Assembly (NCBI RefSeq): GCF_024300625.1
Contig: NZ_CP101322.1
Location: 881,992 to 945,991 of the forward strand
Length of the DNA stretch: 64,000 nt
Source of the DNA: Halovivax gelatinilyticus
GTDB lineage: Archaea > Halobacteriota > Halobacteria > Halobacteriales > Natrialbaceae
Direction of reading: 5' to 3'
In this document: positions 36,544 to 40,761 of the stretch, one piece after another
Layout of the letters: each line of letters begins with the position of its first letter
Numbering within the stretch: position 1 is the first letter of the stretch
Notes under the pieces: generated by a model
Databases searched by the model: none
Seen by the model: the letters and a program-made list of their open reading frames with translations, nothing else
What the model was told of the DNA's origin: nothing
Made by a program: the position numbers and the translations under genes

Positions 36544-37068
36544 ATGAAATCGACCGTTCGCGAAGCCAACCCGGAGGACGCCGGCGCCGTCCGGGACGTC
36601 GCTCGCGAGAGCTGGCACGCCGCCTACGACGACCTGATCGGCGCCGAGTCGGTCGACCGGACGATCGATCGATGGTACGCGGTGGATTCGCTCGCCGAAT
36701 CGATCGCGGGCGCTGCAGAACGCGACGATGCGACGTTTCTCGTCAGCGAACGGACGGTCTCGACGAACGGAGACCGCGTCGTCGGGTTCGCGAACGCCGG
36801 TCCGCACCCCGAGCTGGAGGCGACGGCGAAGCTGTCTCGCATCTACGCGAGACCGTCGGTCTGGGGTGAGGGAGTCGGTCGTCGACTGCTCGACCGGCTG
36901 GAAGCGGATCTCACCGAGCACTTCGACCGGCTCTGGCTGGAAGTCGTCGCCGGAAACGAGGTCGGCATCTCGTTCTACGAGTCGACCGGCTTCGACCGAA
37001 TCGGCGAACAAGAGAGCGTCCTCGGCGACGACGTGGTGGAGTATCTGTACGAGAAGGCGTTGGAGTGA
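36544..37068 (+). CDS. GNAT family N-acetyltransferase
   Basis: A 174-residue acetyltransferase. STVREANPEDAGAVRDVARESW starts the fold, and the acetyl-CoA loop is VWGEGVGRRLLDRLE. The C-terminal strand LWLEVVAGNEVGISFYESTGFDRIGE is characteristic. The substrate cannot be told. The ATG at 36544 is supported by the conserved first strand. It borders the low-GC island, and its last bases adjoin the left flanking repeat. Confidence 0.9.
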   Translation: MKSTVREANPEDAGAVRDVARESWHAAYDDLIGAESVDRTIDRWYAVDSLAESIAGAAERDDATFLVSERTVSTNGDRVVGFANAGPHPELEATAKLSRIYARPSVWGEGVGRRLLDRLEADLTEHFDRLWLEVVAGNEVGISFYESTGFDRIGEQESVLGDDVVEYLYEKALE

Positions 37069-37080
37069 CGGTTCACGGTT

Positions 37081-37215
37081 TCCGAGGACGTCGCTCGCTA
37101 CGCTCTGTTCACGGCTTCGCCGTTCACGTTGTCCGAGGTCTCACTACGTTCGACCTCGCTCTCGCTAAGTCCTCGCAAGCCACTATCCCTCGATTGATCA
37201 CCTCCATCGGATCGA
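37081..37215. repeat. Left flank repeat: 85-nt direct repeat plus decayed rnr 3'-end copy
   Basis: Bases 37081-37166 match 39160-39244 at 85 positions with a single inserted base. Bases 37170-37215 then match the last codons of the rnr-like gene (39319-39364) at 39 of 46 positions, in the same order and orientation. Read on the minus strand the fragment still gives DPMEVINRGI, against DPMAVNNRGI in the real gene. It is thus a relic of the rnr end placed beside the GNAT gene. Confidence 0.8.
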
Positions 37216-37580
37216 CCCATAACTTTTTCCGCGGTACGGTTTCGGTCGCGCCGTGTGATCGACTAATCTTTAAGTCGGCCAATCTGCCAAGGTATTGACT
37301 CTACGGACTTGGAGTGAACCCTTTCGGCGACCATTACACTACCACTGATCGCGTTTTCCAGCCGATGTAGCAGAACTATCGATGCGGTCGTGATCATCCG
37401 GAACACCGTCAACCGGTTCCGCGAGCATTCGACCAGACGATTCGACTCGGTAAGTCAGGGGATGTCAAATAGCAATCCCAAATGGCTTGACAGCCACGTT
37501 GGATGATTGTTTTGAAGTTTGGAGACAACGACTGCGAGCTAGTCAGAACCGACAATTGAAACCAGAAAATAGAAGAGATC

Positions 37581-37808
37581 TTAACTCGAACCCCACCCGT
37601 TATTTCTATAATAAAGTATAAATGACACAATAGCGAAAGTTATTCCAAAAATTGTCCCATGTAAGATAGCTTCTTTATACGATCCACCGGTAGCGCCTGC
37701 ATATAATATAACTGCCAACAGTGGTACAATGATGTACAACATGAATAGTACCAGGGGGTGGTTATTCAGCCACGACTCTACCGATTTATATCGCCGATGA
37801 ATTTTCAT
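37581..37808 (-). CDS. Small two-helix membrane protein; candidate immunity protein
   Basis: A 75-residue basic membrane protein. Residues about 18-37 (PLVLFMLYIIVPLLAVILYA) and 47-66 (AILHGTIFGITFAIVSFILYY) form two helices, with both ends probably cytoplasmic. An AT-rich taatatt lies at 37820-37826, just upstream. No family recognised. Its place next to a Tat-exported cysteine-containing protein in the same foreign segment suggests a protective or accessory role, which is speculative. Confidence 0.6.
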   Translation of the reverse strand: MKIHRRYKSVESWLNNHPLVLFMLYIIVPLLAVILYAGATGGSYKEAILHGTIFGITFAIVSFILYYRNNGWGSS

Positions 37809-38090
37809 ATTCTTGACTGTAATATTCGAGGTGTGCCATTATACCGGGAAGGAGGTGTTGATCTGCAGTCACTGTGAATGTTGGTTGAGCTTATACTATT
37901 CATGTACACCCCGGATTCGGGTTATTATCGTAATTAACCCTATGATAACTCAAAGACATGACGATCCAAGCCAGGTCATTTTGCGAATAATTAGGGTGAA
38001 GAGACAATAGCCAGAACTTACCTCTCACCTCAATACTAAAAACCCTAAGTAAAGATTCGATGTTTTCATATTTTATAATTTTATTTGTGT

Positions 38091-38861
38091 TTATAATATA
38101 TCTTGCGCAGTGTGTCCCGGGGCGGTTACCTTTCGCATGAATACGTCAACTGGAATTTCATTCTCACCAATAAACGATCGGTCGACCACTCCTGCTCTAA
38201 TGACGGGGAAGCGAGTCCATGACTGGTGGTCGTCCCAAACCGCAAATGCAACACGACGCCCCTCCAGGTTCTCCTGTAGTAACCGCGCAAGTGTAGCGCA
38301 CGCCCCTCCGAACAGCATCCTTACGATCGTTCCCGCATACGGAATTACCGCGCATAGCGCTCCGCCCAACGCTGTCGCGCTGTAATTTTCGAGTCCATCA
38401 CCAAGCACAACACCAGCGCCTATTTGATAATGGCTAATATATGGAATTGAGCAACCTTCAAACCTCTCATTGAAAGTTACATACTCCTCAATTATAGAGT
38501 CCAGGTTGTTGATCTCCTTTACATCGATAGGTTCCAGTTTAAGGGGCTTATCATCAACGGCATAAGCCATTATTTCCTCATAAATTTCTTTGTTCTTGTC
38601 TTCTCGGACTATGGAGATCGATCGCTTCTCCTTATCATGGAGGTATAGAAGTGTTTCAGTATCGCTTTCAAGCTTTAAGTATTCTATGCCGGTTTCTTTA
38701 TCCACATAAATCGTTCGAAGGGAACATTCTTCCGAGTTTGATTCAGACGTTGATGCCTGTACAGGAGATCCAAGTACTCCAACACCAATTGGAACACCTG
38801 CGCTCGCTTTGAGGACTGTTCTCCGTGTACTTCCGTTCGTGTCGTAGTTTTCGCCAGACAT
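38091..38861 (-). CDS. Tat-exported protein with Gly/Ala/Cys-rich hydrophobic segment; halocin-like candidate
   Basis: A 256-residue protein. The Tat signal STRRTVLKASAG (R13, R14) is followed by a hydrophobic stretch and a likely cut after PVQA. The mature N-terminal half is charged and strand-like (TIYVDKETGIEYLKLE). Residues about 147-195 are hydrophobic and rich in Gly and Ala (IGAGVVLGDGLE, ALGGALCAVIPYAG, MLFGGACATLARLL). Cysteines lie at 46, 137, 170 and 188. The layout (Tat leader, hydrophilic region, hydrophobic cysteine-bearing region) is reminiscent of halocin precursors, but no direct match to one is claimed. ATG 38867 is an alternative start. Confidence 0.7.
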   Translation of the reverse strand: MSGENYDTNGSTRRTVLKASAGVPIGVGVLGSPVQASTSESNSEECSLRTIYVDKETGIEYLKLESDTETLLYLHDKEKRSISIVREDKNKEIYEEIMAYAVDDKPLKLEPIDVKEINNLDSIIEEYVTFNERFEGCSIPYISHYQIGAGVVLGDGLENYSATALGGALCAVIPYAGTIVRMLFGGACATLARLLQENLEGRRVAFAVWDDHQSWTRFPVIRAGVVDRSFIGENEIPVDVFMRKVTAPGHTAQDIL

Positions 38862-38879
38862 TATCATGGAGGTTGTTTT

Positions 38880-38891
38880 ATTATTATATAA
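38880..38891 (-). promoter_or_regulatory. TATA element of the Tat-exported island gene
   Basis: On the minus strand the box reads ttatataataa. It is centred about 25 bases before the ATG at 38861, the spacing of a leaderless archaeal promoter. Confidence 0.6.
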
Positions 38892-39119
38892 CTTTAACTA
38901 ATTTCTATTCAATATAATAGGTTCGGGCCGAGGGATGGACCATACGATTAAATTGGTTTTGAGTAAGATAACAAGCCAAGATCGATAGGTTTAAATACTT
39001 AGTCTCAATTAATTTATATTTATTATTACATCCCATGGTTGGCATATGATATGGTTGGAGTGTGGAATTGTTGCGGGTCTTGAATAGTGTTCGACGACCC
39101 TGCCTTCGGCCTCGCTCAG

Positions 39120-39311
39120 TCCTCGCTACTCACGGCTCTCGTCGGTCGCCGTTCGTCGTTCCGAGGACGTCGCTCGCTACGCTCTGTTCACGGCTTCGCC
39201 GTTCACGTTTCCGAGGTCTCACTACGTTCGACCTCGCTCTCGCTCAATCCTCGCTACTCACGGCTCCCGCTGGTCGCCGTTCGTCATTCCGAGGACGTCG
39301 CTCGCTACGCT
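39120..39311. repeat. Right flank repeats: 64-nt tandem units and the 85-nt direct repeat
   Basis: Bases 39120-39183 and 39248-39311 match at 60 of 64 positions with a period of 128 bases. The segment 39160-39244 is the partner of 37081-37166 at the left side of the island. The sequence ends four bases before the stop of the rnr-like gene. It lies between that gene and the AT-rich island; no ORF here looks real. Confidence 0.75.
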
Positions 39312-39314
39312 CGC

Positions 39315-40643
39315 TCAGTCCTCGCTAACCTCGATCCCCCGATTGTTCACCGCCATCGGATCGAGACCGACCTCCTGGAGGAACTGCTTGTACTCGCGTT
39401 CACACTGTTCTGCGTCCTTTTGCTTGTCGCTCGCGCGGTCGCAGAGTTCGATCAGGTTCTCGGGGACGTCGTTCTGGTAGACGATCCAGTGGTTGATCAG
39501 GTCAGAGAGGCGCCGAATGGGGCTGGTGAAATGGCCGTAGATCTCGAAGTTGAGCGCGTGGTGGCCGCCGAAGGGGTCGTTCATGTACTTCGCGCGGGGC
39601 ATCACCTTCATCACGGCCCACTGGATCTTATCGAGCTGGCGACCGGGTGCCTCCTCTAAGGTGGCGTTGACGGCCTTCCGGGGGTCGTCCCATTTGTCAC
39701 CGGGGATCGAGACACCGTCGAGTTCCTGAATCTCCTGTAGCGCCTTCGACCACTCGTCGGGCGTCGGCTGCGGGTGGACGCGGTACATCGCCTCGACGCC
39801 CCGATTCCACATCAGCTCGTGCGTGACGGCCTTGTTGGCCTTGAGCATGCACTCTTCGATGATGGTGTGGGCGCGATCGCGACTGGGATTCAGGACGAGC
39901 GAGCCGTCCTCCTTGCGCTGTTCGTGCATTCGGTTGGCGAGTTCGAAGACGAGCGAATTCTCCTCGTGCAACGGCGCCTCCGGGTCGTCGAGGCGCTTTT
40001 CCGCCTGCGCGTAGGTGAGCCGTTCGTCAGACTCGATGACGGACTTGTAGATGTCGATCGACTCGTAGCCGAGGTGTTCCTTATCGAGGTGCATCTCGAC
40101 GGTGTGGGCGAACCGTTCTTCGTTCGGGACGAGCGAGCAGACCGACTCCGCCAGGATCGGCGGCAGCATGTGGATGGTGTACGCCGGCAGGTAGACCGTG
40201 TTCGCCCGCTTTACGGCCTCGTCCCACATCGCCGAGCCGGGGTGGACGTAGTTGGTTACGTCCGCGATGTGCACCCAGAGGACGTACTCGTCCTCGCGCT
40301 CTTCGACGGAGATGGCGTCGTCGAAGTCCTGGGCGTCGATCGGATCCGTCGTCCACGTCGTCAGGTCCCGCAGGTCCTCGCGATCGTCGATCACGGCGTC
40401 GATGTCCGCCTGGACGTCGTCGGTCAGTTCCGCGGCCTCTTCGACGACGGCGTCGGGAAACGCGTCGCGAATGTCGAACTTCTCGAAGAGCTCCTCGCGT
40501 TTGTTCTCCAGGTGGCGAGCCAGATCCTCGTCGATCTCGACGGGACCCTGGCCCGCTGCCGTGCCGGCTTCGGCCTGTGCCTCGGCGGCGGAAGCCTCGT
40601 CGGCGACGGCCGACTCCTCGCCGGCTGCTGCGTCGTCGGTCAT
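39315..40643 (-). CDS. RNB-domain exoribonuclease (RNase R/II-like)
   Basis: A 442-residue 3'-5' exoribonuclease. After an Ala/Glu-rich acidic N-terminus, the RNB domain shows TTDPIDAQDFDDAISVE, whose aspartates bind the catalytic magnesium ions. It continues with LWVHIADVTNYV, YLPAYTIHMLPPILAE and the C-terminal NDPFGGHHALNFEIYGHFTSPIRRLSDLINHW. It lacks the cold-shock and S1 domains of bacterial RNase R, as usual for haloarchaeal members. ATG 40643 is chosen; a second copy of its last codons lies at 37170-37215. Confidence 0.92.
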   Translation of the reverse strand: MTDDAAAGEESAVADEASAAEAQAEAGTAAGQGPVEIDEDLARHLENKREELFEKFDIRDAFPDAVVEEAAELTDDVQADIDAVIDDREDLRDLTTWTTDPIDAQDFDDAISVEEREDEYVLWVHIADVTNYVHPGSAMWDEAVKRANTVYLPAYTIHMLPPILAESVCSLVPNEERFAHTVEMHLDKEHLGYESIDIYKSVIESDERLTYAQAEKRLDDPEAPLHEENSLVFELANRMHEQRKEDGSLVLNPSRDRAHTIIEECMLKANKAVTHELMWNRGVEAMYRVHPQPTPDEWSKALQEIQELDGVSIPGDKWDDPRKAVNATLEEAPGRQLDKIQWAVMKVMPRAKYMNDPFGGHHALNFEIYGHFTSPIRRLSDLINHWIVYQNDVPENLIELCDRASDKQKDAEQCEREYKQFLQEVGLDPMAVNNRGIEVSED

Positions 40644-40761
40644 GTGCGACTCTTGGAGCGACCGGGTGAAAGTCGTGTCGGACCCACCGACCGTCGGATC
40701 GATCCGAGCCCGCACCAGAGAAATCAAAACGTTTACACGCGCAAACAGCTAGCTACAGCCG

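Follow-up and report, generated by a model that had tools for sequence, protein, structure and literature searches.

Elements integrated into the 3′ ends of protein-coding genes are known from Thaumarchaeota (PMC6563490), and for Vibrio T6SS loci it has been proposed that effector–immunity modules are inserted via homology-facilitated illegitimate recombination (PMC5361080). For Haloquadratum, a published account describes deletion-coupled insertions and repeat-bounded indels (PMC3119063). The locus analyzed here is the interval between a GNAT acetyltransferase gene and rnr in a 64,000-nucleotide stretch of Halovivax gelatinilyticus DNA (hereafter, the window). As in the Thaumarchaeota elements (PMC6563490), the direct repeats are made of a gene end, a replacement end appears to be element-borne, and no tRNA is involved; however, those elements belong to mobile-element classes such as proviruses and casposons, whereas the haloarchaeal locus holds a two-gene cassette without a visible recombinase, and kindred cassettes are also found at 5′ gene ends. 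Since targets of this type have already been described in Thaumarchaeota (PMC6563490), an attachment site in rnr would not in itself be a new type of integration target, contrary to the suggestion made in a preliminary description of the window. Like the Vibrio modules (PMC5361080), the putative conflict module lies beside a homologous anchor and has left a displaced remnant behind, but in Vibrio the old immunity gene is displaced, while here it is the end of an unrelated neighboring gene. The Haloquadratum inserts are, in the accessible part of that account, likewise haloarchaeal strain-specific DNA at fixed spots, with a mechanism that is not established, but they are associated with short repeats of 4–20 bp and coupled deletions, whereas the window has duplicated gene ends (PMC3119063). 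Finally, the halocin C8 precursor (NCBIfam model NF040679) is also a haloarchaeal exported antagonist; the window protein gave no match to this model, one of nine members of its family reached E 0.059, and the candidate immunity function is encoded here by a separate membrane gene.

Structure of the GNAT–rnr locus

In the window, both the insertion and the duplication of a gene end are real; their parts are arranged as follows.

36544..37068, plus strand: GNAT acetyltransferase gene, left flank, convergent with rnr (Pfam Acetyltransf_1, E 8e-14); adjoins rnr in many relatives
about 37080..37166, no strand: left copy of the dispersed intergenic repeat R, 97% identical to 39159–39244
37161..37215, minus strand: displaced, decayed rnr 3′-end fragment of about 15 codons, stop lost (85% to 39310–39364; codon comparison)
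37216..39105, no strand: low-GC cassette DNA between the repeats (GC 40–46% over 37250–39000; Tat gene missing in four congeners)
37581..37808, minus strand: 75-aa protein with two predicted transmembrane (TM) segments, candidate immunity protein (open reading frame; linkage of small TM genes to the Tat family in 27/40 members)
38091..38867, minus strand: 258-aa protein with twin-arginine motif (Tat gene), candidate exported antagonist (open reading frame, family alignment, structure model)
39106..39314, no strand: right copy of R including a 79-nt tandem duplication (alignment; dispersed family)
39315..40727, minus strand: rnr, intact, encoding an exoribonuclease with an RNB domain, its tail shortened and joined to R (Pfam RNB, E 1.6e-86; tail comparison); coordinates are those of the longest open reading frame, and the true start may be internal

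Pairwise alignment revealed that positions 37080–37130 and 39159–39209 are identical (51/51), that the left copy has one extra base after 37130, and that 37132–37166 then matches 39210–39244, which bears out the 85-nt repeat with one inserted base reported in the preliminary description. Further inward, 37161–37215 matches 39310–39364 at 85%, and within it the 46-nt rnr part agrees at 39 of 46 positions, in the same order and orientation, as had been noticed for a copy of the last rnr codons. The whole duplication (37080–37215 vs 39159–39364) thus comprises the DNA 3′ of rnr, i.e., repeat R, and the last 15 rnr codons, and its pieces are collinear, the left copy being equal to the right one minus about 70 bp. 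The missing stretch is bounded by CTCGCTCAATCCTCGCTA and CTCGCTCAGTCCTCGCTA, two motifs of R that resemble each other, and recombination of such motifs could account for its loss. The right side also carries a 79-nt tandem repeat (39106–39184 and 39234–39312, 91%) that was absent from the preliminary description. The inner limit of homology is sharp (37215/39364), and the outer one begins about 11 nt past the GNAT stop codon. A search of the own genome with the left copy as query returned the two right-hand pieces with E values of 2.7e-39 and 1.1e-11, so the duplication is no chance match. The DNA between the repeats is AT-rich, as noted earlier, with a GC content of 40–46% over 37250–39000 vs about 65% in the chromosome.

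Neither a tRNA nor an Rfam RNA was found at the locus, and such a target was therefore rejected. A transposon with target-site duplication was also dismissed, since no inverted repeat flanking the cassette was found at the locus and the two proteins encoded between the repeats had no match to transposase families, nor to those of recombinases.

Repeat R belongs to a palindrome-rich intergenic family that folds somewhat better than shuffled sequences (z −1.8 to −2.7). In searches with a score threshold, it gave 11 matches in its own genome (including the two copies at this locus) and 8–11 matches per genome in the four congeners; distant copies are 68–96% identical. Being dispersed in this way, R by itself is not a specific attachment site; what makes the duplication specific is the fragment of the rnr end, which adjoins R and is collinear with it. 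In another genus, a sequence similar to R lies directly 3′ of rnr (L017).

Compared with the intact rnr end, the left piece has two synonymous and five nonsynonymous codon changes, has lost its stop codon, and is altered at residues that are constant in relatives; judged from its codons, it is a decayed, non-functional fragment. The intact gene itself has a short tail, GIEVSED followed by the stop codon, most relatives having GIEVVDxxxAEKTL or similar, and R stands in place of the usual last codons. As the R–rnr junction is common to both copies, the replacement of the rnr tail by R preceded the duplication. Furthermore, the copies have diverged unequally (3/94 differences in R vs 8/47 in the rnr piece, p 0.007), so it is likely that gene conversion occurred or that several events were involved; conversion among R copies may be one reason for the inequality.

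The cargo genes and their family

Two plausible genes, both on the minus strand, lie between the repeats, and no curated family matched either of their products (258 aa and 75 aa). The 258-aa protein contains, by reading, a twin-arginine motif (STRRTVLK) that is common to most members of its family, and Tat-signal models match it only below their cut-offs. Members of the family occur across Halobacteriales: a first profile (E 1e-3) detected it in 56 of 392 genomes of the order, its weak matches often covering the signal region only, and a deeper profile (E 1e-8) in 17/125, 10/146, and 6/28 genomes of three families. In 27 of 40 members, the Tat gene is followed downstream (3′) by a small same-strand gene whose product has two or more predicted TM segments; among control genes from these loci, this holds for 2 of 156. 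The small partners align poorly among family members. The own genome harbors a paralogous second Tat/TM pair at about 724 kb (L138:4818-5710, G000:C1), in a low-GC patch adjoining what reads as an IS6-like transposase fragment.

The structure model of the 258-aa protein (mean pLDDT 71.5, residues 1–44 unreliable) has an N-terminal strand-and-helix part, after which long strands surround a pair of hydrophobic helices at 164–200. Neither Foldseek (E above 0.3) nor VIA (best Z 3.8) gave a convincing fold match in the PDB, though a fold may have been missed; sequence searches returned no relative of the window protein with a solved structure, and a defence library nothing significant. A viral origin and plasmid carriage were considered and rejected, as the window protein had no relatives in IMG/VR or phage records and no match in PLSDB.

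The interval in relatives and the same scar at other loci

GNAT and rnr are convergent neighbors in many Natrialbaceae-like genomes, assigned to the same family by the kinship labels of the search tool, and in ten related loci of other genera the gap between them measures 47–252 bp. In all four congeners (L041, L042, L043, and L044), the interval spans 2.5–5.4 kb and holds other cargo; the Tat gene is absent from these congeners, and neither DNA shared with the window interval nor duplicated rnr or GNAT ends were found in the four intervals. The genes beside GNAT in the congeners read as toxin–antitoxin-like pairs with a PIN-type protein. Taken together, the other cargo in four congeners and the short gap in ten loci indicate that GNAT–rnr is a variable spot. 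Moreover, in G024, from another genus, the same interval contains cargo of another kind, bordered by a duplicate of the GNAT 3′ end (112-nt match, 85%; L050:5673-7458), which implies that the spot has been used repeatedly and that the scar is not bound to one cargo.

Direct repeats were found to flank 9 of 53 loci with cassettes of the Tat family, compared with 6 of 211 spots chosen at random (Fisher p 5e-4). The control spots were partly taken from those very loci, which account for several of the control matches, and the 53 loci include some weak family matches. The strict class, in which a gene end is duplicated, comprises 6 of the 53 loci, the window included (p 0.017), with repeat identities of 78–97% across cases, and most family members show no duplicated gene end. 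Besides rnr, the following gene ends are involved.

L100: ABC permease, 3′ end; 95 nt, last 32 codons
L101: 843-aa open reading frame, near the 3′ end; 104 nt
L184: 94-aa gene, 3′ end; 49 nt, last 15 codons up to the stop codon
L102: usp, 5′ end; 108 nt
L103: 479-aa gene, first codons; 45 nt

For the gene at L184, 19 of 19 congener loci have its body and the DNA downstream of it together without the cassette, the 49-nt piece itself being unmatched in one of them, and these empty sites show insertion directly for one family member. The neighbors of L103 vary between species, so comparison of its site gave no clear empty locus. Among the related insertions, no shared core or boundary motif rose above shuffled sequences.

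Direct repeats at L113, L126, and L182 (a short contig) were not counted as gene-end cases. At L113 (3725-10103), the C-terminal part of a second Tat gene recurs as a fragment beyond the first cassette, on its opposite side. At L126 (1678-7491), two copies of a MATE-type gene (66% amino acid identity) enclose a Tat cassette, and this whole-gene duplication may be a scar of the same type in a longer form. A further Tat cassette (L181:4821-7562) has a 50-nt inverted repeat around it and lies beside an open reading frame that reads as tyrosine-recombinase-like.

The earlier proposal that foreign-looking DNA was inserted at the rnr end is supported by the GNAT–rnr adjacency in relatives, the base composition, the decayed rnr fragment, and the kindred cassettes that bear such a scar elsewhere, among them the one with empty sites. 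The preliminary description had expected an empty site to support insertion, and had held that insertion would be contradicted by a dispersed repeat or by the same AT-rich segment and repeats at this locus in all relatives. Empty sites are present in 19/19 congener loci for L184, and at rnr the comparison yielded only GNAT–rnr adjacency in other genera, all four congeners having other cargo; the 85-nt part did prove to be a dispersed repeat, but the AT-rich segment is missing at this locus in relatives.

Routes of insertion and their meaning

The explanation we lean towards, and consider somewhat probable, is that a two-gene, putative antagonist/immunity cassette was inserted at the convergent GNAT/rnr spot by recombination anchored on the rnr end. 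The incoming DNA would have carried its own rnr end with the adjoining R repeat; recombination anchored on the rnr end would have let the carried copy complete rnr, and the resident rnr end with its R would have remained beside GNAT, where the cassette severs them from rnr and they decay. A single recombination with gene-end-bearing DNA would leave the gene intact on one side and, on the other, a displaced end with its original downstream DNA; this recombination would have proceeded by homology instead of a dedicated integrase. The rnr end might, alternatively, serve as an attachment site in a non-autonomous, site-specific integration, in which a tyrosine recombinase acts in trans on a circular cassette whose gene-end copy restores the gene. 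This would agree with (i) the duplicated segments being short in 6/6 cases (about 45–108 nt of gene sequence) with the gene restored, a length that favors an att-like segment, (ii) some segments ending at a stop or start codon, (iii) the documented archaeal att sites in protein-coding 3′ ends (PMC6563490), and (iv) the recombinase-like frame next to one family cassette (L181). However, the cassette has no integrase, six different genes are targeted, at both 3′ and 5′ ends, no core or boundary motif is common to them, and the repeats are 78–97% identical. With no integrase in the cassette, diverse targets, insertion at either gene end, and no motif in common, homology is favored, and we consider homology-anchored insertion more likely than att-like integration, which we regard as unlikely; on the same grounds, the true attachment site envisaged in the preliminary description was not borne out. 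The cassette could also have entered between GNAT and R–rnr without any duplication, a later tandem duplication or R–R recombination having placed a copy of R and the rnr end beside GNAT. R is dispersed, its copies are more alike than the rnr pieces, and the right side contains a tandem duplication and the left copy a deletion, all of which suits such a local rearrangement; still, it requires at least two events and leaves the gene-end duplications at other genes without R unexplained, and we find it decidedly improbable.

On sequence grounds, the 258-aa and 75-aa proteins are most likely candidates for a halocin-like antagonist and its immunity protein, a reading suggested by export, the linkage to small TM proteins, patchiness, and the variability of the partner. 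Another exported/membrane pair, e.g., one acting at the surface or in signaling, is quite possible, if not favored: no match to a toxin fold or family was found, but patchy spread, low GC, a hypervariable partner, and location in variable spots fit conflict genes.

The more interesting part of the finding is the exported/membrane family together with its recurrent scar, and neither the Tat/TM family nor the gene-end scar was found in the openly accessible literature searched. It is unlikely, yet conceivable, that haloarchaea move a large, undescribed family of integrase-free Tat-antagonist/membrane-immunity cassettes into the ends of protein-coding genes, with the carried copy restoring the gene, so that gene ends would be attachment sites of a new, non-autonomous kind. 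The decayed duplicate of a neighboring gene end is a readable scar that records how a cassette entered that used no tRNA site and has no visible integrase, and the claims on this scar and on the function of the gene pair are both within reach of ordinary haloarchaeal genetics. Few antagonists are known from haloarchaea, and the finding draws attention to a pair of genes, one for an exported and one for a membrane protein, that is widespread in this group and uncharacterised.
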